From NCBI RefSeq assembly GCF_964355755.1, contig NC_092675.1, forward strand, positions 26,638,412-26,702,411: DNA of 64,000 bases, written 5' to 3'. Source of the stretch: Antedon mediterranea (Eukaryota > Echinodermata > Crinoidea > Comatulida > Antedonidae). The notes under the pieces were generated by a model. It saw nothing but the letters and a program-made list of their open reading frames with translations. It made no database searches and had not been told where the DNA came from. Of this stretch, positions 5,547-62,102 are shown one piece after another. A program made the translations under genes and the position numbers. The first letter of the stretch is position 1. Every line of letters starts with the position of its first letter.

Positions 5547-5550
5547 CTTA

Positions 5551-13466: not shown

Positions 13467-13470
13467 CTTA

Positions 13471-17860: not shown

Positions 17861-17874
17861 ATTATTATTAGTGG

Positions 17875-17906
<32 letters not shown>
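17861..17906 (+). repeat. ATT trinucleotide microsatellite
   Basis: An interrupted (ATT)n tract in the 3' flank of copy 4, expanded from the short ATTATTATT present in the sister units (for example 7578-7590). Simple length polymorphism is likely. Confidence 0.85.
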
Positions 17907-18656
17907 GGCCTATAAAAAAACAGAACAAAATCAATTGACAATGCAAATTTCAATATTTTGTTTTAATGTTTAATATAGATTTTAATCATGATCAACAAAA
18001 GCATGGTTGCCAAACAGCCTAATTTAATTTAGCTTTTTTAAATCTACAAAATAATTTAAAATATAAAAATTGCACATCAGTCTATATAAACACTTCATTA
18101 TTTTATTTGCATAATTAATAATTATAGTAATGACTAAATCCTTTCGATTTTGAACATAAACAAAACGCATTTCCTACTACTTACAATAAAAAATCAAATT
18201 AATACAATTCAAGCATAATATGTTACAATAAAATATGTGAATTTTGGTGAAATATAAAAGATAACATGAACATAACTAAAACATATCATCAGAATATTAG
18301 AGTATATAATGTAATTTCATTAGAATTTTAATATATTTAGTATTGATGAAAAGAGGGTTCCTATCCAAAGAAAAGCTAAAAATATAATTATGTTATTTCT
18401 TCATTTTTTTATGTCAGATATAATTCACATCATATCATCACATCATATCATCAGAATATTAGAGTATATAATGTAATTTCATTAGGTTTTTAACAACTTC
18501 TAAAAGCAAATTATTAATTATTATTGATGAAAAGAGGGTTCCTATCAAAAGAAAAGCTAAAAATATATGTTATTCCTTCATTTTTTAAATTTCAGATACA
18601 ATTCATATTCATAAGAAAAAATGGTATGTATCTGTTAGATATTGTATGTTGACTGT

Positions 18657-20297: not shown

Positions 20298-20464
20298 CTG
20301 CAAATGTAAACATTCATTTTTGTTATGCAAATCCTTTATTAGTTGTTTTAATTTCATAATTTAGTAAAACAAACATTAAGGCTCCAAATTAATTCTACTT
20401 TCCAATCTACTTTCACGTGCCCTAGTAAAACGCAGTGTAGCTGTAACTTGTAGTGATCGAGCTG

Positions 20465-26338: not shown

Positions 26339-29300
26339 CTAACTCTTGACTTCTTTTTGCAGATGTTGCAAGTATTCATAGTAAGACATACTAGACTCTG
26401 TTCTATCTTCTACCAAATGTTGTAGAAACAAAATGCGTTTTGGACTATTCTCTCTGTATAAACAATTAATCAAAGAAAGGTATTTGATTAAAGCAGAATG
26501 AAAACAATAATATATCTTAGTATCATTATAACATTGTTAAATTATAGTTATCATTCAATTCAAGCAATCGTAATTATAAACACATAACAAAGTAGTTTAT
26601 TACTACATACAGAGTGCATGCATGTGTGTGTGTTGTATCATCCTAGCCTCTGTGTTTGTACCAGGCTAGGCCTAGCTCTTTCCTGGTGTTGATAACAAGT
26701 TTTCATCCAAAATAAAATGTGTTGAAATTTACATATAGTAAATTTGGATTGTGAGAGGCATAAAAATATACAAACTGCTATTTTATATTAGTTGTCAAAC
26801 ATTATTTTTTCAACCATATCATATACAAAATGAGATATAATCTATACCCATTGTCGAATTGGCAATTTCCAGTGACGTCATGGCAGTTACCATTTCCTCT
26901 ACTTAAATACTAATAAATGAGATTTAGTAATACGTTCAGGATACAAACATGATAAATGTTTACTTTAATAGGAACTAAAGCTCTGTCTACTCTATCAAAC
27001 TTCATGTGACAAAAAAATGTGATGTGCCCATATATGGACATGATGATGTCATATCACTACCATATTTATGCACATCAAACTTTTTTTGTCAAACTACTTT
27101 GATAGTGTGGACAATGCTTGAGACAGGAAATCTCATTTCCAAATTTTCTAAAGGTTCAAAATGTTAAAAATATTTTCCTACTATGTAAAAACACATTCTA
27201 CTAAAAACCAGAGCTTCTAGATATCTTGGATCAGCTTGCCCGGTTGCGGGAAAGCCGACTAGTACTGTAACAGAATGCATAAATTGCCATACCTGATTAT
27301 TTGTAATGGGGCATGTACTGTTCTTTTTCCTAGCAACCAGCCAATAAAGTTTCTAAGTCTTTCTGATGCTGGGTTCTCCAAAACTGGCAATTCCATCTGA
27401 AGAGATATAAAAAAAAACAATACACCATCATTCAATTACAGTAATTATTCAAAAGGATCTTTTTGAATAAACGACCCTTCCTGGATTAACCACCCCAGGG
27501 ATTTGATTATTTTTCATGAATAAACGCCCTCACATACATTCATAACACCCAAAACTGTATTCAGCAAAACATCAAACATTTCTATTTTGTAGATATACAC
27601 TTAACAAAACAGATCAAATTTAGACTGTATTTTATGACTTCTTGAAATAAATTTTGTTAAAAAACTTTGGAGACAACTAATAATAATAATATAATATAAT
27701 GTACTGATTATGTTTAATATGATAGTTCCACATAAGGATAGAATTACTTTTTAATAACCTTTTAACCACAACATTAGATTAACCGTAGAAAAAGAAACTA
27801 TGTACAAGGAAATAAGGAAGTACTTTACATCCCGTCCATTTTCTTACCGTGCTTTCAGAAATAGATGAGTAATCCGGACAATCCAGTATATCCTGACAGA
27901 ATTGTGGTGATATGGCAGCCTGCACAAACAGGAACATCATATCTCCTGTATCCATCAGGAATGCCCCGTTTCGGCTCAGGTATTCCGAGGATAGCCCGAG
28001 CAATGGTGGTTGAGGAACATCCACATCTTTTTCACTCAGAGAGCCCTAATAAAACAAGATAAATACAATTATTTTCCAATTACAATAATTTTATTATTTG
28101 GTGTTTGCCTTTTTCACTATTTATCTATTAAATTATAAACAGCATATTTTGTATTTGGAGAGGGATTTATCTCCTTTTCACTACCTTTAGAATATTCAAA
28201 TTGTTAGATAAGACGGGAAGGAGACATACATGTTGCAATTATTCTTTCTTATTCTTATTTGTACATTTGGATACACTTGAATTTGTACTTTACCTTTGTT
28301 CTTCATACCCTAATTGATAAATTCTATTAATTTTTATATTTATTTTCATCATTTACGTGCACAATTGGGTACTTAATGCAAATTTGTGTAAAATTTCCTA
28401 TTTTGAATTTCCTTTGGACCTAATCCAAGGGTCACATAAGCCTACTGAAATTACCTCATGTGAAAATATTATGGTATAAAGGCTTACATACATTTTAGCA
28501 TAAGCTAATATAAGCTCTAAATGAGATTGTAAACAACATATAGGATGAAAATGAATTTTGCACTTTTTCTCTTCATACCCTACTAAAAATTGTTATGGCT
28601 ATGGTTTGCAATGCCCCTGCTATAATTCAAGTTTCAAAACCTTTATTTACACACTCTAACATAAAAGATAATACAGTACAATGCAGTAAAATGTTTGTAT
28701 AAGATCAGATGAAGAAAAACATCTTGTGTTGGGCGAGCAGTAACAAAAGAAAGGATAATGAATAGGATATTTAAGAAAGAATAAATAAATAAATTTTAAC
28801 AAAACAAAAAACAAACAAAAATTGTATGGAAAAGACAATCCACTCGACCCTAAACTACCCGCCTTACCTCATCAGCAAGATTGTGAACAGCGTACAGGCT
28901 AGGATAAACCTGTAACATAATCAAACTTAATGGTTGACTCTTAAACATCTCCATAGCAAAGACTCGATCATCTAGTTTTGTACTGGAGCCCAAACGAAAT
29001 GCAATCTATAAAACAAAATTAACAATTGACTTTAAGCATCATATATAAATAAAGCTTTGGTTTTAGTTATTATCAATTATTATTATTTGAATAGATTAGA
29101 TAATTTTTATACACTTACATTTTTTAACAAAGCTAAGGTATATAATGGAAGCAGACGAAGACTGTATGGTATTGAGAGAGTGCCAATGGTTTGACTCGAT
29201 GGTAACGTCTCCTTAAACGCCGTCATTGAGTCAATGCACACGTTAACAATAGCATCACGAGAATCTTGCATTGACGATGATTGACACTTATCAACAGCTG

Positions 29301-32300
29301 AAAAAGTTATCTCATTAAAATTTAATTTATTATATTTACTTAAAAAACCATCAAACAGCAGGTACATGCTTTCTAAACCAACAACTAGCAACATTGTATT
29401 GGTCATCACAGATAGGAAACTGTTATAGGATTTGAACCATGGACCCAGGGATTAGTAAGCATGCAGGCTAACCACCTAGCCACTATGTCACAATTACTCT
29501 GCATACAACATTTAATGTAAAGCATATCACTTTAGCATTCTGAGGAGAATGGCCATAAATTTATGCAATTCTGGAGTAATTAAACAGCCCTAAATTTTGT
29601 ATAAAGCTACCCTGGGATAAAACACAAGGTAATCCAAGTAAATAAGGCATCCCAAAAATATTTATTGGATATTAATGTTTTTAATGATTTAAAATTTACA
29701 ATAAAAGTACAAATTAAATTAAAGATAATATTGTTGTTTCATTAACTTACCCATTCTTGATAACAAGCCTATGATGGCCTGTGAATCTGCCCCTGCGTAG
29801 ATTTCTGATAATTGACCGGTTATAGGGAGACACATGGTATGTACCCGGATACGTCTTTCACCTATATCAAGTAAAAACAATAAAAAAGTAATAAGCGCAA
29901 TTGTACATCAATGATCCTCATTTTCAAATTAGGCACTCTATCGATAAATTCACAGTACAGCACTCACAATGGCAAGCACCCGTACTCGTGCCCCTTATTC
30001 ACCATTGAGAGTAACGCTAAGGGAAACACTTATCCTGAAACTTTTAAAATTCTTAATCTATCTTCTATACTTAAGGAAAATCCTGAAATATTTATTAAAT
30101 GCCTAATTGATACATACTATCATATGTCTTTTTATCGGAACAGCATTGCTAAGGCTGTTCTTTTGAAGCTGAATAAAAGGGAAATGTCTCTCGTGAATTC
30201 TTTAGCATGTACATAATAACACTGGTTTTTAATAATGAACATACCTTTGCTGCTTGTGTAGAGCAAGGCTGCCTGAAAGCAGGCTGTCTGTGAGTCGTTT
30301 AAAGTGTCTTCAATAGACATCTGCATAGCATAGCCAGCATCTGGACTAACATTTGGCAGAGACAACAGATCTGTTGACCGCACAAAGAAATTGCCATGGA
30401 ATGTGTGCAAAGCCAAACCTAAAAACAATTAAAGAAAGGTTATACTTACTGGCATCCAGTGGATGACAGAGAAACAAAAACCAAACAAAAATTGCAATGT
30501 AGATAAAGACATGGAATAAGATATATAGAGGGGTTTTCAAATTGCGAAAACCTAAAGACAAAGCACACACGCAGATTGTTCTGACAGTAATTTCCTAGAA
30601 CTAGATTCCTCTAAAACTGTATTGAAAAATAAAGTAAGGAAAGTCTCTACATGCTGAAAATGCACTAACATGGCGTAACGAAACATTAAATTTAACGCGA
30701 AAGCTCCTGAAAAAATATTTGATTTAGATTTAGTTTACCCTTTGTGCAACGAATCCTCATAACTGCTTCAAAGCCAATCTTTCGAGTCAGATAGCGACGG
30801 AAATCTTTTTCAAATCTATCAGCTTGAAGAGGGTTTGCATTGGTATGTAGTCCTGGGAAATGGTACACTGATCCTGCAGAAAACTTGGCCATTCCAGCTT
30901 AAAAATAAAAATGAATAAATTATTTGTTGCTCTAACCAGTTATTTTAGTGGGATACAAAACGTAATAGAGCATATAAAAACATATATTTCTGAATTTGGT
31001 ATATTTGTGGTTAGTAAGAGTTGTGATGTGTGTTGTATGCTCTACTGAATCCTAAAGCTTGTTTTCCACTAGCCAATTATTTTGCATGTTCTCCGATTGG
31101 TTGAGAATTGTTTCACATCATGGGAATATGAATTTTCAGGTGCATAAACCACTCCTTTAATTTTCCTAGTGGAAAACATGGTTTTAGTTTTGTGTATTGA
31201 ATAACAATTTCATACACTGTACTGTAACAACCTAACTACAGTGTGTTTACAATGAGCTTACCAAGCGTAGCCAAGTCAGCATATTGAGAACTGAACAAAA
31301 ACAGATCTGCACCAATCTGTTGAGCTGAGAAGTCTAAAGCCATCTTCTTGTAAAAGTCTGTTGCGGGGCCTAAGTTGGCCACATTCTAAATATAAAATAC
31401 ATTACCGTTTCATCAATACAGTATATGTACATTTTGTTAATAGAATATTCTTGATTGGTGACGGAAGACTTCTTTCTCATTCAACATAGATTGAACGAGA
31501 TTCATCAATAAGGTGGTAATGTAAGGGGTTACCCTGGTGTACTAGTTCACACACAGCCACTGTCACAAACTCATAATAGTACTATAGACTGGGTCCTCTT
31601 TGATTGAAGAGGTTACCCAGTATAAAGAAGAAATAATAATGGTAATGCTGCATCATGAAAACTAACCTTTGATGATCGTTGGTTAGGATCTTCTCTAGAT
31701 TTAAGAGATCCTGGGCCGGTGGTAGGCAAACTGGACTGAATGACAGTTACACGACCTCCAGTTGGACTCTATTGAAAACGAATAGCAAAAGTCAGTCAAT
31801 ATTTACTATTATTTATAAAACACCTGAATATATCCAATTGATTGGTTAATTACATATCACAAGAAGAGTTTAATGGTGATTATGAATGGTAATCTCTTGA
31901 ACGTTCATTTTTTTGATAAAAACATTCATTATTTTTTATATTATTTTACTTTGGTGATTGGAAATTAATGTTTTTTTTGGTATAAAATATGGAATTTACA
32001 AAAAGCCTTTAAATCTTTAAATTCCAGAAGGAATTTTTATAATTTTCAGGATATAATTTGGAAACTCTGGAGACTGGAAACTGTACCTTAAATACACAAG
32101 AAAGATATCGCTATTTGTTTAATTCACTTACCAAGAGTTTATATGCAGCCTGTAATGCTGGTCCAAGTGCGGTCCTTGTTTCTTTATTGTTTTCAAACAA
32201 GCTAGGCAATTGGTTTAACAGGTCTTGAACAAGCTGATAAAATAAACATACACAAATACATGTTATTCTTAAAGACTTCTAAACGCATGTGATTGTTTAG

Positions 32301-35300
32301 ATGTTTGCCCTACTCTGATTGGCTACTCCAAAGTAGTTACAAACAATTACAATCCTGTATATTTTTATTTTTTTTATTTATTTTTTTTTTAAAACCAGAA
32401 ACAACAGCAGAAACAAATCCACCACTTACAGCTTGGTTTAACAGATACAATACAATTACAACAACTCAGAAACACTTAAATTACGACGAAACTGATAAAG
32501 ATTGGAATTAAAAATGTCAATATGGGGATGGGCCTGGACTAAACTATTATAATATAAACTTAATCTACTGATGTAACCATTTTTTAGAACATTGACTCTA
32601 CAAAAGGGAACACAAAGGATATTGTTGTTTCTTTGTGATTATGATTGTGATTATTATTGATTGTTAAGCATGTTGAATTTTTAAGAAAACCCTATTAAAT
32701 ATAATATAGTTTTAGTAATATAATTAAATGTTTTTACCTCCTTTGATTCATTTAAATTAACTAGCAGGTCACCTGGTAAAGGTAAGAAAACATCTGAAAA
32801 AACAACCAATATTAACAATATTAATTAATATCATTTTTAAAATTGTCCTATAAAAGATTTAAATTAGGTTTTTATAATCAGTATCAACAAAAGTCCCCTT
32901 TGCTAAATGCATTTAAAAATCAATAAGACATTTAAAAAAAAAAAAAATTCAAAATTAATGAGTTTAATTTTACCATCAATATCAGAAATCACCATCATCT
33001 GCGGACGCGTGGCGCCCTCTTGCATGTTGTAGAAATGAAGTGTGTTGTCATATGTGATGAAGCCAATTTTTGTTCTCGTATCTCCTGGCAACCGGTCTAA
33101 CTCTTCAAGGAGAACTTGACAGAAAATAGGTAAGATTCCAGACTGGACAGAACTGAACGACACATCTAGTAAAAATAGGTAGACAGCAGGCTGAGGTGGA
33201 CGCAACTGTAGATGAAATAATATTGAAGAAATTAGATATATACAACATATTAGACTTGTTATGTTTTCGATATTAATTATTGAATTATAAATTGTTGTAC
33301 TAGCATTCTAAAAGAGACTCGCACAACATTTTTTGTTCTTACCATATATTCAGATGGTGCAATAAATTCAATGGTGGATGAACGGATTTCAGGCCGTCTT
33401 GAAGGGTCACCATATGTACGAGTCACTGGGTCAAAGGTGAACTCTTCTTGTACTAAAATAAGAATAAATAAATCTCTGGTTACATCAATCGTTTGGAAGG
33501 ACGGCCAATTGTGCGTCTATTCTCTATCCACAAGGGTCCATTTTGGGCCCATTATTATTTATAATTTATTTAAACGATATTGTTTCTATTTCAGATAATT
33601 TCTCATTTTATTTATACGCAGATGACACCAATATAGTAGTTTCTGATAAAAATATTAAACAACTCATTACGACAGTAAATCAAGAACTAAATAAAGTTTC
33701 CTCCTGGCTTAAATCTAATAAATTATCACTTAATATACTTAAAACAAATTACATTATGTATAGTATAATAATAAGCATAGTAGACGACAATATCACAATA
33801 TTCAAATTATGATTGACAATACTACTATTTCACAGGTCTCTAATACTAAATTTTTAGGCGTAATTATAGATGAAGCACTAACATGGTTTAATCACACAGA
33901 ATATATATCCAACATTATTTCTAAATATACTGGCATTTTATTTAGACTAAAACATGCTCTCGCACCGAATATTTTATTTTCTTTATATCGCACATTAGTT
34001 CTCCCATACTTATATTATTGTAATCTTATTTGGGCAGATGCAAACAACTGCAATTTGAAAACCATTCATTTAAAACAAAAGAAAATAATTAGACTCTGTA
34101 CAAACTCATCCTGGCTGGCCCATACTGCACCCTTATTTTTAAAATTAAAAACTTTAACAATCTATGATATTCATAAATTACAAAAAGCAAATTTTATGTT
34201 TAATTTTGTTAATAATAATCTACCAAGTAATTTCAATACTTTTTGGGCTAGGGTAAAAGAAACACATTTTCATAATACAAGAACATTAAATGATTTGCGT
34301 CCGCATAATTTCAGAACAGACCTGGGAATGAATACCATTAAACGGCAAGGACCTATATTGTGGAATGATATAAGCAATTTTATTAAGAACCAATGTACCT
34401 TAAGTTTATTTAAGAAGAAATTTATTCACAGTTTATTATCAACGTATCAGTAATATTATGTTATATTATTTAATTAGTAGAGTAACATTATTTAAGTTTA
34501 CTTAAACAACATACATATATATGTGTGTGTATGTAAATCTATTACATTTTTTATCTAAAAGATGATATTCAGATTTTATTACCATGTACTAGTAAAAATA
34601 AAAATAACTATATGTAATCTTCATGTTAACCTTCTTCAGAAGTAAGTTAAAAATTATCATTTTATGATCAAAAAGAAATATACTATCTAATTTTCTCCTT
34701 TATATAAATATATTATTTTATCCAAGGGGTTGCAAACACAAGTGTTCACATGTCTTGTTATGTATTGCACCTTTGTCTTGTCTTTATGTTGTCTGTAATG
34801 CCACTGCACTAACGGGTGACCGGCTAACGAGCTTCGCTCTTACGGTTATCCATCCATATAAGTTGTTTATCTTATGTTCATAAATTGAAATGGAAAATAA
34901 ACTGAAACTGAAACTGAAACTATCAAGACAACAGAATTAAGGAGCATGGGCACAAAAAAGGGAGTCAGATACATGGTTGACCTAGCCAATAGAAAACAAC
35001 GATGTAGTCCGTGCCTATAGAGAAAAATTTTACATTACCCACATTATTGACTGTGCAAATAGCCTCATCCCAATTATTGAGTTCAAACATGGTTTAAAAT
35101 GGTAATATACTAATGAAATAATAAAGTTTATAATAATTGCATCATTTGTCAATTTAAAGATGATTTTAACACAATTATTTAGAAAGTAAATTTGAAAACA
35201 TGATTTTCAATGTACTTACAATCATTAACTCTAAAACAAAGATTGCACCTCCAGCGGCGTTGATCAATGAAACTAACAAAGGGATTGATGTACGTCCTAC

Positions 35301-38300
35301 AGGAACGACATCGAACAATCACACTTGACTGAATTACAGGTAAATGCTTGAAAGAATAAACAACAAAACATTCACTGATTTAATGCATATGATATGCAGG
35401 TTTCTTAAATATCACATTGTTTTTGCTACATCACATTTAGGTTTTGTGATGGGTTAGTCACACTATAGAGAGTCTTCTATTGTGGATAGCAAATAGAAAG
35501 AATAAAATAGACAACAAGTACATCTTTCGAGATGAGTAGGGGATTACCCCGATGTACTATTAAAATACATCATAGTCACTTATCATAACTGGGCGCTCTT
35601 GGAGACCAGTCTTTGACTGAAGAGGTCACCCAGTATAAATAAATAATATAATAATAAAGTTGTTGCAATGTGCTGTCAAATTAATCCGTAAAGGTATAAA
35701 GTGGTGTATTGTATGAACACAAATTTTAAATAATTTGTGTATTACTTACAGCATCATGTATACTTACTGATAGATCCTTATAAGGATGAATTAAAATTCC
35801 TAGGGGTAACTTAGACTTCTGAAGTAAAGATTGAGTTTGGGGTATAGAGGTGAGAGTGCATCGAAACAAACTGCAATAAAAAAAGTATACAACTAGATAC
35901 AGATAATTTGGAAGTCGGTGTTGAGTTTTAATTGACCACCCTGTAATATAAGTTTAATAAACCAAAGTGAAGGAGTAAATATATCTAATAATAGTCTACA
36001 ATGGTAATCCCTTGCTTGCAAACTCAACCTAACTAGGAGTTTTGCTAGTGTAGACAAGTTTGAAAAACTTTGGCAAACTGCAGAAAGCAAGGTGAACAAA
36101 GCATACACTATCAAACTTTACTCTGCAAGCTAGAGCAAACTCTGAGTTCACAAACAAAATATTGGTGAAGGTTTCTATTGTAGTCTTTGACAATTCTAGA
36201 TAAATACTGTTTACTCTACTTAACTGGTGTGAAAATAATTTTAAAAAACACAACTCACTCAGGGTTGACTTGAGATTTTTGATTTTCGCTACTAAGTTTC
36301 GGTTTGGGAGGCTCAATTGGAGTTTTTGGTAAAATATGTCGCTCCTGTAGTAGGTTCAGCGGCCTAGCTTCACTCTGCTGCATATTCATCTTTCCAACTC
36401 CAGCTGCTAAATTGTTCATCTAAAACATCACAGAAAATAACATTGACAACATACACAGGCAAAAGATTACTTCGCAGATTACTGAAATAAAAGGTTTGAT
36501 TCCCACTTCGACGCAACAATATAGGCGACACAAAGCAAATGAGTTGACTAATCACAACAGTTCAGATAATTATTTACGTCGTTATTGGTCAAATTATTTA
36601 TGGTACACTTAAGCTCTGTTTACACTATCAAACTAGTTTGACCAAAAAGTGTGCCTAAATATGGTAGTGATGACATCATCATGTCCAAATATGGGCAGAT
36701 CACATTTTTTTGTCACATAGTGTAGACAGAGCTTTACATCCTATGATAGAATCAAAGTGTAATTTTGGTTTAAAAAGAGTCCATACAGTCTTAAAATAGA
36801 TATAGTAAATCTCACCATAGGTTGAGGAATATGGCCAGGTTGATTGTTAGGTAAATTTGTTCCTACGGTTGGTCCCATTGTGCCTGGTGGTTGAGTTGGC
36901 ATCTGTCCACCAACTTGCTGATATGACTGGTTAGGGTATTGACGTCTTCCTGCTACATTCATGTTCTGGCCTGGAGGACCCTGCATTTGACTAGTAGGGG
37001 GAGCCATGTTACCAGCTCCTTGTGGCATTGAGCCCGGGGGTGGCGGCATTGAACCTGGGGGTGGTCGCATTGAACCTGGGGGTGGTGGCATTGAGCCTGG
37101 GGGTGGTGGCATTGCTCCTGGGAGTTGCGGCATCGCATTGGATGTTGAATGCATAGGGCCTGAAGGTGGTGGTATGGAGCCTGGGGGTGCAACCATGTGT
37201 GGCGGCATTCCACCTGGATATTGGCCTCTAGGTGGTTGTTGTACACCTGAAACAAAAATAAATTGTGTTTAATGAAGTATGTTTATCAGGTAAAGTTACT
37301 GTGTTCAGGGAATTGGCTAACGAAATCAAAGGCTTGGGTGCTGAAAAGTTAGGGTGGTATAAAAAACGGGTAATTTCAGGTACCCACAGTTTTCTTGGGT
37401 TGGTGCTGTGTTGAAATTAGGCTCGGTAGAAGGCCCTAAAACAAGTGAATGTGGGTTTCCCTTCCAATATGAAGATCATTTGTAATTATATTTAAAAAAA
37501 TCATCAAACTAACCTGTTGAAGAGAAGGGTGTGCCACCTTCCAAGTAGTCGTATCTCAAGCCAGGTATTGGCGATGGAGCTGCTGATGATCTGGCTGATG
37601 AGGGGCCTAATACAAATTGTAATAAAATAGTAATGCATTTCAATTTAGAAGGATCAATTTCATGAAAATAATAGTAATAATTCTGAACAAAATTGTTCTA
37701 GAGTATGCAAACAAAATACAAAAGTGGAGAGAATGATGCCAGGTCCTAGAATAAAAATTGAATTACAGAATTTTTTTGCTGCAAATTATAAGACTACATT
37801 ATAAGCTCAATGAGTTATCACTTAAAAGTTATCGGACACTAATTTACAATGTGCTGTAATATTCCCGATAATTAAAAAAATTCTTAATTTCTTTCCTTAT
37901 AAATTAAAATACATTAATTTTGTACAATGTAATTTAAAATGTATCATTTAATATGGGTCTCTTCAGTTATTTCAAAGAGTACCAATATGGGGAGTCCCAA
38001 TAATCGCATGAATGTAATGTATGTGTGTAATGAAATAGATTAATCTGATATTAAAGTAAATAGAGTATGATGTTGATAAATTCATACAAAACTTATTTTT
38101 AATTTTTTTAATTTTAATATACTTTAATATATCATACTTAATGATCAGTTTGTTCACTTGAATGAATAGGCCACCCTTATTAAAGATGTTATTAAATAAA
38201 TAAACTTTTTTTTTTATAAATTTAGGGATTGCTAACAAAATGAAGAATATAGACAATGTAAATATTCAATATACCTTGTATTAATATAGAATTAGAAAAA

Positions 38301-41300
38301 ATATAATATAAATGAAATTGAATATATAATGTAAAAAAAAGTCATATAACATGTTAATATGGTTAGGTTTCAAAAATTGTGTAAAATTATAAAAAAAAAT
38401 AATCTTATACCATGCCAGACTATATATTTTATACTTCAGTACCAATTTGGAGATTTTTATCCTTTTCTACTTAATTTCAGAGATGCAGTTAAAAGAACAA
38501 AAGGAAGTTTTAAAAATGTATTAGAGTATTATTAGACAAACAATATATAACAGAAGAGAAGTCAAGTGTTTTTATCAATCCAGTTTAATTGTGTATGATG
38601 TGGCAATATGACCATGGCTTGTGTGTGAGTTTGCACACATGTTGAAAATAAAGGCAGAATTCATACTTAGTACAACTAGAAATAGTATAGTGAACTAATT
38701 AATAACTACAGACATTCACCATCTTTAACCCCTATTGACAATTGAAGTTTATGCTAAAAATGTTTTCAATTTGTTTGAACTCAGATCTAATTGTTTTAAC
38801 CTAATTTACAGTAAATACTGTTCTACTATAGTGTTCAATAATTATAACCCCATAATTCTATACTAGTGCTTCTAAATTAATATTATATACAAACTATTAT
38901 ATTAGTTGAATTATTGTACAAATTAATTTGTTGGTAACATGCAAAAGTAAAGAATTACTAGAAAAGAGAGATTATTAGTTACTGTACATGCCACAAATCA
39001 TTCATGTTCAAGTAATGCAATGAAAATGATAAGCCACATCTACAAAATGAATTTATTAATTTTAATGAAAATTCTTATTTTTTGTTGTAACTTATACCTG
39101 TAATGTCCAGTAGGCCATCCATACTCGAAGCAGACATGGATCGATGAAACTCATATGTAGGCACGGGCAGCGAACCCAGGGAGGAAGCCGAGGGCGAACG
39201 GTTCAATGTTGGTGGCGGCGCATGCAAGTATCCTGAAAATTGTGTTAGTTTATGGGATGTTAGCGTAACATGCAAATAAATATTAATATGAAATAAAAAC
39301 ATGATAAGTAAAGCTTATTATATTGATGCATACAAATTATAACATTTAATTGAAAAAAAAAACAAAATTTTAAAAGATTTTTAAGGTAATATTATATTAA
39401 TCTTTAATGTAAATTTTATATTTATACCTACAGTTATTTAAGGAAAAACAAACAATGTTTGAATCTGAAAAACCATTCCATATGTTTCTTTCATTTTCTT
39501 TCATAATTAATTGATGAATTTAAAATATTAATGACAACAGAATGTCGGTATTCAAGTAGAAATCAATTATTTCTATCTACAATGTGGTCAATACTGTTGT
39601 TTACAAGCTATGAAATTCACAAATGTGATTGTGAATCAGACTTGGTATCAAATTTCCCAAATCAATTTTCACTTTTTTTTAGCTCCACTTGAAATGATTG
39701 AGGGTCATGGATAGGGGGTTCTTAAAGTAATATGTTTTTCCACTAATAGCTGTAACATTAAACTTATTGTTATAATACGAATGTTTAAGAGGGAAATATT
39801 TAATTTAATATTTACAAAATTAATAACAAAAGCTTAGCAAAGAATAAAAAAAAAGTAAAACAAAAGTTCAGTTGTTAAAGAAAATGTTTTAAATTAAAAC
39901 TATTAATTGGAAAAACAGTAGAACACCTACTATCAGGATTCCAAGTGACCCCTAAATAGGGGTTTGCAATATTTTTAAAAAATAATAAATTTCCCCTCAT
40001 TAATTTTACAGGAAACGGTGCCTTTATTAGGGGTGTCCTCTAAATAGGGATGACCTAAAGAAAGGAGTTCAACTGTATAAACGTTTTAAAGATATTGGTG
40101 GTAGCACAGTGTACTGTAAGTATAAGAGGTGCAGTGAATTGTGTTAGGCCTATATTATCAAAGTACAGTACTAGACTACTCATTTTCAGCATTAATATGA
40201 GCTGTGGTGTGAGCAAATGTGACTTTTTGGGTATAATAAGTATTTTAAACCCAGAAAACCTATAAATTACATTGTACAGAAAATGTTATTTTCAGATCTA
40301 AAGATACTGTAGCAAATTGTAAATATATTGGATTATTATAGTTTTGTTTGTCATTAATCAAGATGTTTCTTTAATACTATAAGACAACATGATCTAAAGG
40401 ATTTAGTAATAGATTTAGTGTTTAAACATATTGTCTTCATAACAACAACTATTTAATTTCAACAAGATTTGGTTGCTGCAAATGGGACTGAACGAAATAC
40501 ATTCAGAAAATATTATGAATGAGAGTAACAACTTGTCATGCATACTGTATGTTATAAAAGACATAATATAAAACCAGTCTTCTTCATGTTAAAAATTAGT
40601 GTTTAAACTTACCATGTATAAATCAAATACATGCTTTGCTTTTGATACATGCAAAGTACAGTATCATGTGAAATATAGTATGTGATTTGTGTATTACATT
40701 AATCTTACCTGAGCCATTTATCTGTTGACCAGCAGGTACACTGGTAGGTGGTGGGCCATATGTTGTTGCTTGCACATTTACATTGGGGATTGCACCTAAC
40801 CTCGGTTGCATACCAGTTGGCGGCCCAGCTACATTTGCTGGTCGATTTACACTGGGTGGCCCACCATTAGGCGGCTGCCTATTTTGGTCCATTTGCCAGT
40901 TAGCTGCTGGTGGACCACTGTGTAAATTGAATTGATTTGAAGTTTGTGGCTGAGCACCCATTGAATTCATATTTTGTTGGCCTCTACCACCGGTCGGTGC
41001 TGGTGGCCCACGACTGTGAGGTCCACTAGGTATATGAAAGTTCTGTGGAGCACCACCTGGTGGTCCTATAGCTGCATTATTTAGAGGTCTCTGGGGCGGT
41101 GGCCCCTGAGGATGAGAGTTCGTAAAAGGTGAATTTTGTCCAAAAGTTGGTGGTGGGCCAGGCATTCTATTTTGCATTTGCCCTGAAGGGGATGGAAGCC
41201 GAACTCCAGGCATGAAAGAATCCTTGCTTGGTTGTCCTATTTGATTTTGAACTTGGTTGAACATTCCACCCGGAGGCTGGCCTTGTTGGTAATTGTAGCT

Positions 41301-41330
41301 CCCAGGCTGAGGTGGTCTTGGCTGCTGCAT
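26339..41330 (-). CDS. SEC24A: SEC24A/B-class COPII cargo adaptor, complete, 21 coding exons
   Basis: SEC24 pairs with SEC23 in the inner COPII coat and selects cargo at ER exit sites. Coding exons, 5' to 3': 41330-40709, 39232-39098, 37606-37514, 37246-36816, 36419-36259, 35870-35768, 35346-35220, 33452-33343, 33205-32974, 32793-32738, 32233-32132, 31768-31667, 31385-31262, 30897-30739, 30418-30245, 29861-29751, 29297-29119, 29005-28868, 28045-27848, 27396-27293, 26453-26339. They sum to 3576 nt, 1191 residues, all in phase with GT-AG introns. Visible parts: a Pro/Gln-rich N-terminus (1-430), the [10 protein letters not shown] block, a zinc finger (C528, C531, C549, C552), the trunk ([10 protein letters not shown] onward), the helical region ([19 protein letters not shown]), and a gelsolin-like end finishing [14 protein letters not shown]. 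Recalled human proteins place it with SEC24A/B rather than C/D. A 5' non-coding exon probably precedes an acceptor near 41349. Confidence 0.95.
26978..27120. mobile_element. MITE, AAGCTCTGTCTACACTATC family
   Basis: In SEC24 intron 20's upstream neighbour DNA; the left end AAGCTCTGTCTAC and right end GTGGACAATGCTT are imperfect inverse copies around a palindromic interior with TGTGCCCATATATGGACA. Same family as 36612-36733, 45510-45644 and 61126-61260. Confidence 0.7.
29430..29497 (-). mobile_element. tRNA-derived SINE head, minus strand
   Basis: Read on the minus strand it has an A-box-like TAGTGGCTAGGTGGTTAGC and a B-box-like GGTTCAAATCC at tRNA spacing. It lies inside a SEC24 intron in the same orientation as the gene. 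Body and tail limits are unclear. Confidence 0.6.
31055..31188. mobile_element. Palindromic MITE in SEC24 intron
   Basis: Left end AGCTTGTTTTCCACTAG, right end CTAGTGGAAAACATGGT, its near inverse. The inner arms share the TTTCCACTAG motif with the 5551-6097 element. The target duplication is not clean (TAA against TTA). Confidence 0.65.
31500..31640 (+). repeat. Dispersed repeat, second copy at 35500-35650
   Basis: Both copies, in two SEC24 introns, contain a GGGGTTACCCTGGTGTACTA-like block, a CATAATAGT or TCATAACTGGGC middle, GAAGAGGTTACCCAGTATAAA, and end in an AATAATAAT-type tail. This is the pattern of a SINE or short retroelement tail; I do not recognise the family. Confidence 0.55.
33484..34921 (+). 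mobile_element. 5'-truncated CR1/Jockey-type non-LTR retrotransposon
   Basis: Lies antisense in the SEC24 intron between exons 7 and 8. It starts within the reverse transcriptase domain at a [11 protein letters not shown] motif, followed by the catalytic YADDTN box, then the [15 protein letters not shown] and [13 protein letters not shown] blocks typical of the C-terminal half of such ORF2 proteins. The frame breaks near 33795 and again before the first retained motif, so it is dead. After the stop near 34453 comes a 3' UTR ending in a GAAACT microsatellite (34897-34921), as in other microsatellite-tailed elements. The truncation point is about 30 bp from the exon 8 acceptor. Confidence 0.88.
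36492..36611. mobile_element. Degenerate MITE, GATTCCCACTTCGACGCAAC type
   Basis: Related to the 22.7-23.5 kb cluster: GATTCCCACTTCGACGC at one side and an inner GACTAATCACAA...TATTGGTCAAATTA inverted pair. The right end is lost next to the neighbouring MITE at 36612. Confidence 0.5.
36612..36733. mobile_element. MITE, AAGCTCTGTCTACACTATC family, TTA-flanked
   Basis: The best-preserved copy: AGCTCTGTTTACACTATC at the left, GTGTAGACAGAGCT at the right, TTA on both sides (36609-36611 and 36734-36736). It is 122 bp with a palindromic interior and lies in a SEC24 intron. Confidence 0.8.
37030..37134 (-). repeat. 21-bp coding minisatellite in SEC24 exon 4
   Basis: Five consecutive 21-bp units encode a seven-residue repeat of the form MPPPPGS (variants MRPPPGS and MPQLPGA). 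The block lies in the disordered Pro-rich N-terminus of SEC24 and always keeps frame, so copy number can vary without breaking the protein. Confidence 0.85.
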
Positions 41331-44206
41331 TTTGTATTTTTATTAGACCCTATATAGAAGACAAAGACAAAATGTTTGATTCAAATGAAATATTATTCTT
41401 AATAATTATTAAAAGAAAAGTAAGATAAATAACAAATTGATAAAGAATAACATTTAAAAAAATTACTTACAGTACTAGGCCTACCTACCAGGGAGTTTAC
41501 AACTCCCTGTACCTACTAATAATAAATACTACTGAACTGTACCATTCAGAAATTCAGAGTGAAAAAAATGACAGTTCATTCAGTTCTATTTTATTTTATT
41601 TCACTAAAAATTAAATAATAATGTATCATTTTTTCATTAGAATATATGGCCTCTTGTCCCTAGCTAGGCCTAAACATAGATTAGACACATACTTATCATG
41701 GCTTTGTTAGCTAGGCCTAAAGAGATCTGTTTGATAGATATGCTACCGACCGTACTTCTCTGCCAGAAGACCCGAACGATGGATGTTCGTGAGACCATCA
41801 TTTATCAACATTAACAACGATCAACGAAATTGTAATCAATAAAAGCAACATACATTTCTTATGATATACCTAAACTACATATTATAAATAATAATATTAT
41901 AATGACTATGATCCCAGATTAAACTATATTGTAATTTTTATTATCATTACATAATTGTGGACTTACTAGTTAGGCCAGTCAGCCTCAAGTTGGTAAGTGA
42001 TTTTGCTCACGGTCTCAATCACTTTTTCCCTGTGTAAAATATAAGCCGGAAATCTCTATGACCCCTATGACACAGCTAGCCTATCTCTCTCTCGTCAAAA
42101 TTCGCCCATGTGTAGCACGCCCTCTTACTCAACGTGGCACGCTGCTAAATACCGGGGCTCACGAGGTTATAAATAAATGTTCTATCCATCATTTATATGA
42201 TTACCATTACATTCATAAAATGAAAAAAAAAAATGATTCTAAAATGTAATATTTTTTCCCCAGTTTTAAATCACATACATGATATTTTATAGATACATTT
42301 TTAATGTTCAGTTTCTATTTAAAGATAATTGTTCCGCATTAAATTTTGATTTAAAGTGAACTTTAAAACTATAAAAATAAAACGACAGGGGCTATGATTT
42401 AACAAAATTCTTCAGAACAAATTCCAATTACTTTTATTCTATAGTTGCTGTACCCCGTAATTTCATTTGATGACCTTTTTATATTTCACGACCTACACCT
42501 TTTTTACGTGGAACAAAGTTTCTGAAATGCATTATTTATTTGTATATTTCTTATGTTAGCAGCATGAAAACATTTTCCATTACATATTATGTTAGATTTT
42601 GTTAAAATTTAAGAGATAATTGTTATATTTTATAAACGCATAATGAAAATGTCACTACTATAGACCAATCAGATCAAGCTTTATATAAGGTTACGGAGTA
42701 ACACTGACGTATCGGATGCAGCCATCTTTTGGTGTGTTCAATCGCAGGATTTCCCAATGACATTGACAATAAGTTCCACATTTTTACCCGTTTTTAGTTA
42801 GCTGGCTATATCAAAAAGTGCTGATTTCATTAGAGGTAAATTCTTGATATATTTCAAGACAGACGTTGTACTATTTTTTATATATAAATTTGTTTAGCTT
42901 CTGTAAATCAATATTTCCCGGCACTCGACTCTATTTTTGTTTCATCATTGAATTGTGAGTAGGCTAGCCTAGGAAATGGTGAAATGGTACCTCTCGATGC
43001 TATACGTACGGACTTTAACTGTAGCTCTGCAGAGATAAGGGTGCCTGCTAGGCTAGCCTATTACACTAGCCTAGATGCGAGTGGATTTCTCTTTACAGGT
43101 CGAAAACGATATGGAATAACATTAAATTACCACTTCTGCCCAGCTCTCTCTGAGTGAGCTAGCTCTAGGTAGGCCTAGCCTAGTTTTGTAGCATACCATA
43201 ATTCCAGTTGTGTTGAGCTTACTAAAACTCAAACCAAATTTCATTTCATTTATTTAATTGACCAACAACCATTAAATCTATAATGATTTACGAATATGTA
43301 AAATATACAGAGAAGACCAGAGAGTACAAGAGTCAGCAGTCCTATCCATGATCTTAACTAAAATAAATTTATAATATTAATAAACAGTACTGTATATTTA
43401 GACGTGTTACAAACAAACAAAAACAATTAGGGCCTGCCTAGTTATTAAATATAGGCCTTGCCTAATAGTAGGGGTGCCTAAAAAATAATTTGGCCTACTT
43501 TTTGATTTAATAAAAAATAAAATTATTAATTAGGCCTACTGTAGCTAGGGCTTATAATAACATTAATAAATTCACATTATTCATTTTATTTAAGTGTTTA
43601 ATTTAATTAACAATATTATTATTAAAATATTGTTGCTACTTCTGTATTATATTAGGCCTACAGTCCATTTTGGTATTTATTTGATGAACTATTTGAAATA
43701 AACCAACTTGAAAAACCAGGAAAAAATATTTAAACTTTGTCAGTAATGCTTAAAATAAAAGTATATTTAATCTGAATTAAATACCGAATGTATAAATACA
43801 GTTATGAATTGAAAATATCTTTATGAGGCTTTAGTGTGAAATAATGACATGTACTTACTTATTATTCTGTTGTTTCCTGTATAAAACCCTTAAACTTATT
43901 TAATCTTACTTAATAGTACGTGTATAATACTTATTTGTCAATTCTGCTGATCTTGAGAGAAAGTTTTGACCAATAAATGTTTGTAGTTTTGAAACATAGA
44001 AATTATTGATACTAAATATAGCATATGACACACACTATTTAAATTCTTATTTTGTTGTGCTGATGTGTCAGTTTGTGTACAGTTTTATTATCACGCAACA
44101 CATGTCATTACTGCCAACACATCGACGGCGGTGTCATATAAAACCATACAACAAGTGCATTTTATTAGATTGTTAAATAATCGGAAAATAATTAGTTTCC
44201 TTAAAG
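41331..44206. other. Spacer between divergent SEC24 and SAR1
   Basis: Holds the 5' ends of both COPII genes. On the minus strand a good acceptor (CTATATAG) at about 41349 and a donor-like CTAGTAAGTCC at about 41965 suggest a SEC24 non-coding exon starting near 42000. An ETS-like GCCGGAAAT lies at 42044. SAR1 promoter signals are listed separately. Around 43240-43340 a minus-strand retroelement tail (ATAAATGAAATGAAA read in reverse) is possible. No other gene is seen. Confidence 0.4.
42660..42836 (+). promoter_or_regulatory. Candidate SAR1 promoter and 5' non-coding exon
   Basis: A TATATAAG box lies at about 42682, a TGACGTAT CRE-like site near 42706, and GCAGCCATCTTTT (a YY1-like core) near 42718. 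Downstream, a donor-like TTAGAG|GTAAATTC at about 42836 would end a first non-coding exon spliced toward 44345 (or the optional exon ending at 44248). All of this is inferred from motifs. Confidence 0.35.
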
Positions 44207-44365
44207 ATGGAGTCTGTATTTTATAAGAAAAGAGCCTGTTATATTCAGGTAATATGTAAAGCTATGCTGTACCAGTGGGTGACTAATATTAAAAGTAGTT
44301 ATTGGTTTTAATATACCATATTAACACTTAATTTTTAATTTCAGGTTGAAAATACCAAATTCAGT

Positions 44366-47300
44366 ATGTTTAGTGGATGGTTTGATTGGTTTACAAATAT
44401 ACTTAGCTTTTTAGGTGAGTAAATTTTTAGTAGATATATTTTTCAGATTTTGAATCTTCTTATACAGTAATTTAAGTAATAAAATAAATATTTGGTGCCA
44501 TTATCAAACTGTACTGTACATATTGTACTGTAAGAAGCACTACAGTAATTTGGTGCCATTATCAAACTGTACTGTACATATTGTACTGTAAGAAGCACTA
44601 CAGTAATTTGGTGCCATTATCAAACTGTACTGTACATATTGTACTGTAAGAAGCACTACAGTAATTTGGTGCCATTATCAAACTGTACTGTACATATTGT
44701 ACTGTAAGAAGCACTACAGTAATTTAGTGCCATTATCAAACTGTACTGTACATATTGTACTGTAAGAAGCACTACAGTAATTTGGTGCCATTATCAAACT
44801 GTACTGTACATATTGTACTGTAAGAAGCACTACAGTAATTTGGTGCCATTATCAAACTGTACTGTACATATTGTACTGTAAGAAGCACTACAGTAATTTG
44901 GTGCCATTATCAAACTGTACTGTACATATTGTACTGTAAGAAGCACTACAGTAATTTGGTGCCATTATCAAACTGTACTGTACATATTGTACTGTAAGAA
45001 GCACTACAGTAATTTGGTGCCATTATCAAACTGTACTGTACATATTGTACTGTAAGAAGCACTACAGTAATTTGGTGCCATTATCAAACTACTGTACATA
45101 TTGTACTGTAAGAAGCACTACAGTAATTTGGTGCCATTATCAAACTGTACTGTACATATTGTACTATAAGAAGCACTACAGTAATGTTGTACAGTACTTA
45201 TTATTATACTGTGCATCTCTTATTCTTCATAATTCCTCGGCTGCTGTTAGTTTGTATTTTATTCATCCATATAATTCCTAAGAGATCTTTGCTATCTACT
45301 GTACTGTAGTTCAAAATCTGTATTACTCAGTCCGTCCATCCGTCAACAAAGCATTATGGTTTTTCGTTTCTTTTCCTTTGGCCTCTGTCGTCCTTTGGAA
45401 TGGTTTGCCCATCTCTATTCATAGGGCTACTACAATCGCTTGTTTTAAGGCTGCTCTGAAAACTCACCTTTTTAACTCTTTTTTTTCTCTTAAGCTCACT
45501 ATCATTATGTGACAAAACAAATGTTATGTGCCCATATATGGACATGATGATTGTCATATCACTACAATATTTGGTCATATCACTACAATATTTTGGCATA
45601 CAGTATCACAACTTTTTTATTAAACTAGATTGTGTAGACAGAGCTTCTGTTTTCTGCTTTTTATTTCTTTTGTTAAAAAGCGCTTTGAAGCTTTGCATAA
45701 TGCACTATATAAGTCCCAATTATTATTACTGCAATTTTAAGATGTTTTCTGTTGTGTGAAATGATAATAATATTATACCATACTTATTTACAGGTTTATA
45801 TAAAAAAACTGGCAAGTTAGTATTTTTAGGCCTAGACAATGCAGGAAAGACAACATTACTACACAGATTAAAAGATGACCGAATGGCTCAACATGTCCCC
45901 ACATTACATCCAAGTAAGTCGCTCTTAAATTATTTAAATTTTTTTTTTTGAAGTAATACTTTAAGATTACAATTGTGAACTATTATTGCATTTTTATAAA
46001 TTATTAATTTCCAACAATATCTTTGTAATAAGTTACCCTTTAATGCAACAGCGACCAAAGTTGCTTACAGAATTGATAAATAAAAAACACAATACAGTAT
46101 AAAGATAAGACTTATTTGGTAGAATTCAAAATAACTCTTATTACAATAACGATTAAGGAATTTCAACAAAATATTTAATCATTCTAACATTCTTTTTAAT
46201 TTCTGTTATTGTACAGCTTCAGAAGAACTTCAAATAGGTGGGATGCGTTTCACAACATTTGACCTTGGAGGTCATCAACAAGCACGCCGTATTTGGAAAG
46301 ACTATTTGCCGGCTGTAGAAGGTATTGTATTCCTGGTGGACGCAGCTGACCGAGAACGACTTATGGAATCAAAAGAAGAATTAGATGTAAGTCTGAACAT
46401 CTGTTGAGAATAATTATTTGTAGAAGGAAAAAAATGTGAATATTTTCTCTCAATTATTCCAAAAAATACCAATACCAACAGTCAAGCGTGCATGTACTAT
46501 ATATATATATATATATTTTTGACCATATTAATGAGGGTGATCCATCCATCAATTGCTGATCATTAGGGACCCTCACAGGTTCACAAGACAAACTTATACA
46601 CAAGATGCTCTACATAAGTCGTATTACAAGTCTTTGTGAGTGGATTTTTTAATTTTGTCCTGACATGCAACAGGAATTAAACCCAGGACCCTGGGAGTGG
46701 TAGCCAAGCATCATAACCACCAAGCTACAACTCCACTCTATTTCAATCAGCAAAGTTGATCTTGTGCCCTAGAAATGGGGAGGTGTTACTATTACCTTAC
46801 CCTACCCTACCTTACCCCCCTTAAGAAAGGTTAAACAAGTACTTCCAGTACTTGCTTAAAACATATATATATGGGATTTGGATTTGAAGAGTGCAAAATA
46901 CAGGGAGCTAAAGTAACTGTTCAGGTGTTTTCCCATCTCTAACATAAATTTTATTTATGTTACAATATTGAGAACACTATTATCATGTTGAAGTGACATA
47001 TTTTGTAATTTGTAAAGTTTTGTGTTTTTCCATTACAGAGCCTAATGACTGACGAACAAGTTGCCAATGCACCTATTATGATCCTAGGAAATAAGATAGA
47101 TTGTCCAACTGCATGTAGTGAAAATGACTTGCGTTCTATATTGGGCCTTCATGGACAAACAACAGGCAAGGTATGAACACCTCAGTCTTACAATTTCTAC
47201 TTGTCTGTGTTTTTGTATTGCTGATATATTTGATATTTACTAGAGGCATTTTCTGTACACAATCATAACAACCATTCATTATTCCTCCAAAATATCCATT

Positions 47301-47483
47301 TTCTAAGAATCCATTTTCTTGATTAAAAGTTTACAATCAACTGATTGATATGACTTTTTCTTTTTTCAGGGCACAGTTCCAATTAAGGATTTACCAGGAC
47401 GCCCCTTAGAGTTGTTTATGTGCAGCGTGCTGAAGCGACAAGGTTACGGAGATGGGTTTAGGTGGTTAGCTCAGTATATCTAA
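44366..47483 (+). CDS. SAR1B: SAR1 small GTPase, COPII coat initiator
   Basis: SAR1-GTP inserts its N-terminal helix into ER membrane and recruits SEC23/SEC24. Coding exons 44366-44414, 45794-45913, 46217-46386, 47039-47170 and 47370-47483 give 585 nt, 194 residues (vertebrate SAR1 about 198). Seen: an amphipathic start rich in W and F ([13 protein letters not shown]), P-loop GLDNAGKT (29-36), switch II DLGGH (72-76, with the catalytic His), NKID (131-134), and the C-terminal FRWLAQYI. The start matches the family's usual N-terminus. The exon 44345-44414 follows a TTTCAG acceptor. An upstream exon ending at 44248 would extend the frame by 21 codons. SAR1A or SAR1B cannot be told apart here; the name follows the SEC24A linkage. 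Intron 1 carries a minisatellite and retroelement fragments. Confidence 0.95.
44491..45184. repeat. 58-bp minisatellite, 12 units, in SAR1 intron
   Basis: Units start at 44491 and every 58 bp (TTTGGTGCCATTATCAAACT...), with the last at 45127 after a unit with a 2-bp deletion. Units differ by only a few single-base changes. Each contains the near-palindrome TACTGTACATATTGTACTGTA. Very high identity suggests recent expansion or ongoing homogenisation. Confidence 0.97.
45350..45735 (+). mobile_element. 3' end of a CR1/L2-type non-LTR retroelement, MITE-interrupted
   Basis: Around 45397-45495 a frame reads [20 protein letters not shown], the usual C-terminus of this reverse-transcriptase class. 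The 3' tail AAGCGCTTTGAAGC...CTATATAAG and an ATTATTATT end follow at 45675-45735. A MITE sits between ORF end and tail. It lies in the SAR1 intron, sense to the gene. Confidence 0.75.
45510..45644. mobile_element. MITE, AAGCTCTGTCTACACTATC family, left end lost
   Basis: The right end GTGTAGACAGAGCT and the interior GTGCCCATATATGGACA match 26978-27120. The left terminal about 25 bp is missing. The TCATATCACTACAATATTT motif is duplicated inside. It interrupts the retroelement fragment around it, so it is the younger insertion. Confidence 0.7.
46545..46740 (-). mobile_element. tRNA-derived SINE, antisense in SAR1 intron
   Basis: On the minus strand the head has GTAGCTTGGTGGTTATGATGC (A-box region) and GGGTTTAATTCCTG (B-box region) in tRNA-like spacing. 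The body extends left to about 46545. Same class as 29430-29497. Confidence 0.65.
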
Positions 47484-47707
47484 TTAGGTTACTTTTTGTA
47501 TGCATATCTTTAATCCAAGTTCCTAAAAATGAGAGGATAACTCTCATTAAGTTCAACAAAAGTAATAATAAACAAAATAAATTAATATACACATTTGTAC
47601 AAGTTGCAGTGAAAGTTTAAATGATTTTTAACTTAGCTGGTTTGGGTGCATTTGTGTTTTTTTAATTGAAGACAAAACAGTTAATTTGTAGCAGTGTGTG
47701 AATACTA

Positions 47708-47828
47708 CCTGATTGTTACCAAATGGATACAAAATGGCAACCTGATTGTTTCCAAGTGGATACAAAATTTGCAACCTGCTTGTTTCCAAATGGATACAAA
47801 GTGTTCATACAAATGGATACAAAATGGC
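47708..47828 (+). repeat. 33-bp tandem repeat in the SAR1 3' region
   Basis: Units begin CCTGATTGTT at 47708, 47741 and about 47774 and share AAATGGATACAAAATGG, with a partial fourth unit ending AAAATGGCGG. It probably lies within the SAR1 3' UTR. Confidence 0.75.
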
Positions 47829-51373: not shown

Positions 51374-54300
51374 TTACAGACTTCTGTCTGAAGGCTTCTT
51401 GTATGTCATATTTATGTAATCAAAAATATCTTCCTCACTACTGACTGGTAGTGGTTCTCCAGGAATTCCTAAAAGAAAAAAAAAACATAAAAATAGTAAT
51501 AAATTATAATTATATTTTTCCTTACTGTGTCACTTATTTGTTCTGTAATTAGCTATTCATTATAATATTATTATTGTTTCTACATCTTTATAAGCCATTG
51601 CGGTTTCTGTGGAACCTTTTCATCTTTAATTTAAGATGAATAAAGTGTTATTTATTAATTTGAAAACATTTAGTCTATAATTATAAAGAATAAATAAATA
51701 AATGTGCTTAAAAAAAAAGCCCATATCTGTTAAGTGTTGGTTTAATATATTAATATCTATTATTTATAGTCAATACACAAGATTTAAATCAAAATAAATA
51801 ACATAATTTTCATACCAGTGCTTCCCATTGGTCGAATTGTATATTCATTAATTGTAAATCCTTCTTCCAATGCCTTTCCTCTCATTTGTTTATTAAAGAC
51901 ATCACTACCGGTAAAATACAGAGTGCCACAGAAGTACTGATCGTTAGGTATTAGCCTAATATCAATTCTTCTATATAGACGCTCTCCTTTTGGGTTTTCA
52001 TCGTCTTTTGGAAGTCTGCAAACACCCTATAAAATGATTTAAAAATAAATATTATTTATTAATGTATGTATTATAAAAAAAAAACCTTTATCTCCTCCTA
52101 AACCACACAACCGTTATTTGTGCTGTTTTTTTTTTGGCGAAATGTAGATTTTAGACCAATTTCTTGGAAATGCTGTTTTTGGCAATTCCCAGTCGTTTTC
52201 TCTATGCCATGATCAAGTCACAGAGAGGTCATTGAAGAGAGCAAGCATGGTCTGTATAGCAGCTGCTGTAGCACCTTGTTCGGATTATACAACGATGTCA
52301 ACGATTTTAACTTTTATATGAATTTTATATAATCATTGTAAATTTTTATGCCTTTAATATATTTTATGTCATTTGAATATTTTATGTGTTGTACTGTATG
52401 TTTGTTTTATCGAGGGCCCTGAATGATCAGTTCTATTAGGAACTGGATAGGCTACCCTCAGTAAATATGGTAATAAATAAATAAATACAACAAATTCACT
52501 ATTTAGATGGTGCCCATCCATTGGTAAATATTTACCATCGGTAATCTCTAGTTTTATATAATGTTTGCTTATTAAACAATAATAATTAATAATAATAAAA
52601 TATAATTGTAAAGTTGATGTACCATGAATTTAGTATCACCAATAGAAATAGTTTCTGTAACAAAATTAGATTCTTTCATTGCTTCTACCACATTGCGAAG
52701 TAGTTCCGGCTTTTTATCATCAGTGGATGAATACGATTCATGTGCAAGAAGGCAATCAATATCACCACTTGATTTAGCACCTCTTCTGTAACTTCCACAT
52801 ATTGTCGCAATATAGTCCTTATCAACACCTTTAATTTCTTTAAGCATTATGCTCTCAAGCTGTTCCATTTCTGAGCGGGGTATTCTTTTTTCAAAGTCTT
52901 CAAAGTGCCTATAATAGGGTGAATAAAACATATATGTGTTATTTTTTTCAATCAGATTTTTTGCAATATGACATCAAGTCTGCGTAGTCAATTCGAAGTG
53001 CCCTTTAAAACTAGAGACAATAGAAATGATAGTAAATAGGCCTAACTTGCCTTTCCCATGATGTTTCTTGCCCTTTTGTGAAAAAACAAACTCTCTTTAA
53101 AATCCTGGCTACAGGCTTGGACGTAATACAAAACTCTTACTTAATAAGTATAACAAAAAGTAAGAACAAATCACAATGCATTTAGGATTTCCTTACTGAC
53201 TGCTAAAATATTGAAACACTTTACAAACCTTAAACCAATCTTCTGATGGTGATTAAGTCTGTCAACATTTTCCCTTAATTCTGAAAATAAAATAAAGAAT
53301 GATGAATTAAATTAGAGGTACATTTTGTACATACATAATCATTAAGCTTCTTGATGGCAATTACAGTAATACATTGATCTCTAAATATGGCCCTATTTCA
53401 AAAGGGTCTTGATATATTAAGGGGTCCCAAACTACTAAGTGCATGTTTCAAAAGAATGAAGGGGTACCAAACTATTAAGGTCTGGGTCATCACATACTAT
53501 TAGATACAAAGTTATAAGGAGGCACAAATTATTCAGGATCGAGTCCTAAACTATCAAGGAGTTCAAAGCATGTAAGAAGTTCCAAACTATTAAGTCAGCA
53601 TATACTATTAGTTGATAAATTATTAAGGAGTCCACAACTATTAAGAAGTCCCAAACTAGTAAGGATTCCAAAGCAATTAAGTGGTTCCAAACTATTAAGT
53701 GGTCACATACTATTAGGTGATACATTATTAAGGAGTCCACAACTATTAAGGAGTCCAAACTATTAAGGATTCCAAAGCAATTAAGGGGTTCCCAACTATT
53801 AAGTGGTCACATACTATTAGGCGATAAATTATTAAGGAGTCCACAACTATTAAGGAGTCCCAAACTATTAAGGATTCCAAAGCAATTAAGGGGTTCCCAA
53901 CTATTAAGTGGTCACATACTATTAGGCGATAAATTATTAAGGAGTCCACAACTATTAAGGATTCCAAAGCAATTAAGGAATACAAAATGAATGATTAATG
54001 AATTATTATCAAATTATTGAATACCTTCAATTGTTGTAATGCCATCTTCAACAAGTTTCCTAGCAGCAGCTGGCCTAGAGTATTAGGTACAAGTCAAATG
54101 TGAGTATAGTACTTTAAATAAGAATTTATATAAAAGTTAATCAATTCAAATGTCAGTACATATGTGAGATTTTTACAAATGCTTGGTTCCCACTATGCAG
54201 CATGCGAGGACGTAAACGCAACGCAAGTACATTTTACCAATCACAAGTGATGGATTGTTCGAAATGTCGCTTGTCATTGGTCAACCTGCTTATTACATTG

Positions 54301-55822: not shown

Positions 55823-62102
<6,280 letters not shown>

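Follow-up and report, generated by a model that had tools for sequence, protein, structure and literature searches.

SAR1 recruits SEC23/SEC24 in the COPII coat, by which cargo leaves the endoplasmic reticulum, and in human the genes SEC24A and SAR1B are adjacent and divergent at 5q31.1. The closest described system is the mouse pair Sec24a/Sar1b, which is divergent with starts <10 kb apart, is co-expressed and has been described as 'likely sharing a promoter region' (PMC3575404, 2012). It was the only interacting pair among the duplicate-free pairs above the neighbourhood-score cut-off in the G-NEST analysis (PMC3575404). Ancient conserved microsyntenic and divergent gene pairs of animals are comparable in that unrelated genes have stayed tightly linked over hundreds of millions of years; SEC24 and SAR1 differ from these in that the two proteins are direct interaction partners, something that G-NEST reports as uncommon for neighbouring genes that are not duplicates (PMC3575404). 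The SEC24-SAR1 pair is not mentioned in the text of PMC8851819.

The locus described here lies in a stretch of 64,000 nucleotides, hereafter called the window. It resembles the mouse pair in its gene classes, its head-to-head arrangement, starts within a few kb and the proposal of a shared promoter region. It differs in that mouse Sec24a and Sar1b are post-duplication copies, whereas here the genes are single, pre-duplication orthologues, with POLB and HIF1AN as the next genes beyond SAR1. Since the mouse pair has already been published, the present case is a further example of a known pair, new and evolutionarily deep, and the shared-promoter idea, published for mouse in 2012 (PMC3575404), is not new. 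The comparison covers one invertebrate genome and the mouse as given in the literature.

The SEC24 and SAR1 genes of the window

A complete SEC24 gene on the minus strand (ATG at 41330, end of the stop codon at 26339; 21 coding exons, 1191 aa) and a complete SAR1 gene on the plus strand (ATG at 44366, end of the stop codon at 47483; five coding exons, 194 aa, GT-AG introns) are adjacent and divergent, with 3,035 bp between the start codons. The original prediction had described two complete, divergent genes about 3 kb apart, and the gene models confirm it, the outer ends at 26339 and 47483 matching exactly. The introns of SEC24 are GT-AG in 20 of 20 cases and its spliced frame is open throughout.

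26339..41330, minus strand, SEC24A/B-class gene (open spliced frame, phmmer, tree)
41330-40709, 39232-39098, 37606-37514, 37246-36816, 36419-36259, 35870-35768, 35346-35220, minus strand, SEC24 coding exons 1-7
33452-33343, 33205-32974, 32793-32738, 32233-32132, 31768-31667, 31385-31262, 30897-30739, minus strand, SEC24 coding exons 8-14
30418-30245, 29861-29751, 29297-29119, 29005-28868, 28045-27848, 27396-27293, 26453-26339, minus strand, SEC24 coding exons 15-21
44366-44414, 45794-45913, 46217-46386, 47039-47170, 47370-47483, plus strand, SAR1 coding exons (spliced frame, phmmer, Pfam)

The best PDB matches of the predicted SEC24 protein (phmmer) were human SEC24B (1057 bits) and SEC24A (1044 bits), those to SEC24C/D being far weaker (409 and 380 bits), and its sequence identity was 60-61% to SEC24A/B versus 30-32% to SEC24C/D. 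A maximum-likelihood tree was built from the human SEC24A-D domains of solved structure and both SEC24 genes found here, and every branch had a support of at least 97. In it the window gene was sister to human SEC24A and SEC24B together (100/100) and outside these two, which were themselves sisters at 98/97. A gene at 30.03 Mb on the same chromosome (C6) was sister to human SEC24C and SEC24D (100/100). The window SEC24 is a pre-duplication orthologue of the SEC24A/B class; its predicted place in the A/B clade thus held when the tree was made, the C/D gene being a separate locus.

The SAR1 protein matched SAR1b (336 bits) and SAR1a (322 bits) of the PDB over the full length (phmmer) and the Pfam Arf family with 207 bits; its best match was SAR1 over the full length, set apart from Arf/Arl. 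SAR1 was found as a single copy in the genome search, the next matches being Arf-type genes with 33-39% identity. The window protein shared 150 of 193 residues with human SAR1B and 143 of 193 with SAR1A, a comparison to which we give little weight. As there is a single SAR1 and a single SEC24A/B gene, both are the lone orthologues of genes that were duplicated in vertebrates.

Intron 1 of SAR1 contains a tandem array (44490-45185) of 12 copies of a 58-bp unit, 98% alike, possibly a length polymorphism beside an essential gene. Directly past the SAR1 stop codon, at 47707-47800, there is a 34-bp repeat in about three copies. To the left of SEC24, at 3451-20360 on the minus strand, at least four consecutive open frames with B-box, filamin and NHL repeats, several apparently broken, make up a tandem array of TRIM-like genes that has expanded in this lineage.

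Linkage on chromosome C6 and lineage of the genome

The genome of 354 Mb is made up of 11 chromosomes, each 22-41 Mb long, together with seven small pieces; a search for mitochondrial COX1 gave no match. Three loci of the Sec23/24 type were found in the genome search, namely the window SEC24, the SEC24C/D gene, 3.4 Mb from the pair on the same chromosome C6, and SEC23 on C10. Perfect MMGAPPNS and PGPGMP repeats occur in the N-terminal region of the SEC24C/D gene (C6:30.033 Mb, local 3200-3700), which may therefore differ in length among individuals. A PITX-type homeobox, searched for with a homeodomain sequence, was also found on C6 (88% identity, the next best matches having 52-64%). Since C6 makes up 9% of the genome, any one result of a shared chromosome is weak by itself; two hits among three markers would occur by chance with a probability of about 0.02, and for the presence of SEC24C/D and PITX on C6, descent from one ancestral chromosome is a better explanation than chance.

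In human, the PITX genes are close to SEC24A (5q31), SEC24B (4q25) and HIF1AN (10q24), and SEC24A/B/C/D, SAR1A/B, PITX1/2/3, HIF1AN and POLB together are on chromosomes 4, 5, 8 and 10. Remnants of four NK clusters, a paralogon, are located on human chromosomes 4, 5, 8 and 10 (PMC2446394). The genes of C6 match the human gene set above, in a comparison of few markers in which PCBD does not fit.

Beyond SAR1 the window contains the DNA polymerase beta gene (POLB, 51377-55165, minus strand) and a HIF1AN-like cupin gene (about 55800-59217, plus strand), flanking genes which differ from the human ones. Human PCBD genes are near SAR1A and SAR1B; here PCBD is on C8, a different chromosome from that of the pair. 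The genome search gave no match for CAMLG, and the control queries were equally without match. Judging from PCBD and from the genes that follow SAR1, the wider block of human 5q31, with CAMLG and PCBD as neighbours, is not present around the pair, and this block does not define the pair itself.

Human SAR1A and SEC24C are both on 10q22, which the original prediction had taken as a hint that the pair predates the vertebrate duplications. That this linkage duplicates the SEC24A/B-SAR1 pair is ruled out, SEC24C belonging to the C/D class in the tree; what stands is its fit with an ancestral chromosome on which SEC24C/D was also present. With the SEC24C/D gene on C6 here, the 10q22 linkage more plausibly goes back to an ancestral chromosome with both SEC24 classes and SAR1.

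The lineage was assessed with microRNA markers. The genome contains let-7 and is thus bilaterian. For the protostome family miR-2, neither a covariance model nor a 20-base pattern, in which one mismatch was allowed, gave a match in the genome, a result which is no proof of absence. Two copies of miR-2012, the distribution of which is given in PMC11076791 (see also PMC11521371), are in tandem 707 bp apart at 27.617 Mb on C7, with hairpin folds of z -5.9 and -3.2. With let-7 and miR-2012 present and miR-2 undetected, the genome is probably that of an ambulacrarian, most likely an echinoderm, in agreement with the deuterostome setting that had been supposed for the pair.

The strip between the start codons and the CCACGT sites

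The intergenic strip contains the following features, of which the promoter and splice assignments are predictions from the sequence.

41331..44365, no strand, intergenic strip of 3,035 bp, without other copies in the genome apart from a single short dispersed repeat
42000..42170, minus strand, CpG-rich stretch, putative SEC24 promoter zone
42132..42138, plus strand, ACGTGGC, putative CREB3/XBP1-type site (0.04 expected in the strip)
42506..42511, plus strand, ACGTGG, second putative CREB3/XBP1-type site (sequence motif)
42665..42728, plus strand, predicted promoter-like cluster facing SAR1 (motif scan with Markov controls)
42835..44345, plus strand, predicted SAR1 5'UTR intron of 1.5 kb (donor GAG/GTAAAT, acceptor TTTCAG/GT; 42835 is the last exon base and 44345 the first base of the next exon)
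43238..43430, no strand, short dispersed repeat of about 190 bp, with dozens of genome copies

The cluster facing SAR1 is a CCAAT/TATA/YY1-like run, with CCAATCA at 42665, TATATAAG at 42682, TGACGT at 42705 and the YY1-type GCCATCTT at 42721 (0.06 expected), and the transcription start of SAR1 would be near 42,710-42,730. With splice-site matrices trained on the 24 introns of SEC24 and SAR1, the good donor at 42835 and the strong acceptor at 44345 point to an untranslated 5' exon, followed by an intron, ahead of the SAR1 ATG. On the minus strand, splice sites for a SEC24 5'UTR were predicted with the donor near 41967 and the acceptor near 41349, which together with the CpG-rich stretch suggest a SEC24 start near 42.1 kb. 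The strip allows other pairings of splice sites. The putative start sites would be about 0.6 kb apart, with the start codons 3 kb apart.

CCACGT is the core to which CREB3-type factors and XBP1 bind. The strip has two such sites, those at 42132 and 42506 of the list above. The 2 kb upstream of the SEC24C/D gene contained four CCACGT sites, all at most 375 bp from the ATG (local 1621-1968), and one, TGACGTGG, was seen in the corresponding 2 kb of SEC23. In the three COPII upstream regions seven CCACGT sites were seen versus 0.47 expected (rank 1 of 553 CpG-containing 6-mers), the expectation being from a 141 kb background which was not promoter-matched and leaves the strength of the enrichment uncertain. 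The fly factors CrebA and Xbp1 have one common binding motif (PMC12262295), and CREB3L2 raises Sec23A and Sec24D (PMC6616197, PMC5554210). The four-site cluster of the SEC24C/D gene resembles the human Sec24D promoter, which is driven by CREB3L2 with CRE-like sites between -525 and -205 (PMC5554210). As CCACGT is carried also by SEC24C/D, 3.4 Mb away, and by SEC23, on another chromosome, co-regulation need not depend on adjacency; judging from these motifs, the parts of the COPII coat could be kept in step by a common factor alone, and adjacency need not be selected for it.

Probable ancestry and retention of the pair

A vertebrate counterpart in the same orientation, which the original prediction had named from human, is provided by mouse Sec24a/Sar1b (PMC3575404), and the linkage since early deuterostomes that it had proposed is now well supported for two lineages, those of the window and mouse, with the same SEC24 class and orientation. 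Since the same genes, class and orientation occur in mouse and in a probable ambulacrarian, the linkage would date from the ambulacrarian/chordate split or before it. It is probable that the pair is a retained ancestral one, with SEC24A/B and SAR1 already head-to-head in the ambulacrarian/chordate ancestor or earlier. An ancestral chromosome would have carried the head-to-head SEC24A/B-SAR1 pair and also SEC24C/D and PITX, and the arrangement would then have survived here and in mammals. Within the 3 kb strip the genes would have separate core promoters, of the CCAAT/TATA type near 42.7 kb for SAR1 and CpG-rich near 42.1 kb for SEC24, and a CREB3/XBP1-type factor at the CCACGT sites would raise both genes along with other COPII genes. 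Adjacency may aid via common open chromatin or enhancers, and would not be required for the co-regulation.

Two further readings concern why an ancestral pair stayed together, not whether it is ancestral. To the first, that the pair is a relic of slow rearrangement here and in vertebrates with no selective reason, we give slightly less than even weight: the linkage was kept also at the level of the whole chromosome, with SEC24C/D and PITX on C6, and the authors of G-NEST hold that protein interaction is unlikely to drive the formation of neighbourhoods (PMC3575404), whereas, as far as one window can tell, the other neighbours were shuffled and the pair was not.

According to the second, the pair shares a bidirectional regulatory strip under selection, and separation would unbalance SAR1 and SEC24. 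Selection for such a strip is possible from the sequence, and as the explanation of the linkage it is rather doubtful. SEC24 and SAR1 are not known to be neighbours in flies, the strip is 3 kb long rather than <1 kb, and with CCACGT sites also present at COPII genes elsewhere in the genome, co-regulation can work without linkage. On the other side, the predicted core promoters are close together, the sequence of the strip is mostly unique in the genome, and the mouse pair is co-expressed with starts <10 kb apart (PMC3575404). The stronger form, in which selection would have acted since early deuterostomes and the strip would set the ratio of GTPase switch to cargo adaptor in the coat, is unlikely. 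If a selected strip were true, the pair would be among the very few direct, non-duplicate partners that have been side by side for >500 million years.

That the pair formed independently in this lineage and in vertebrates is very improbable. In its favour, the flanking POLB and HIF1AN are unlike the human genes, PCBD is on another chromosome and one non-vertebrate genome was compared. Against it, the orientation and SEC24 class are those of mouse, a match that is hard to explain by chance, and SEC24C/D and PITX are on the same chromosome. By our own estimate (20,000-25,000 genes), a named gene would be 5' and divergent only a few times in 100,000.

With the pair read as ancestral and retained, the known mouse pair is now seen to be older than the vertebrate genome duplications, and probably older than the ambulacrarian/chordate split. 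This offers a reason for the human SEC24 and SAR1 genes being scattered over one related set of chromosomes. The compact 3 kb strip is also a place to ask whether the adjacency of interacting partners matters or a shared factor is enough.
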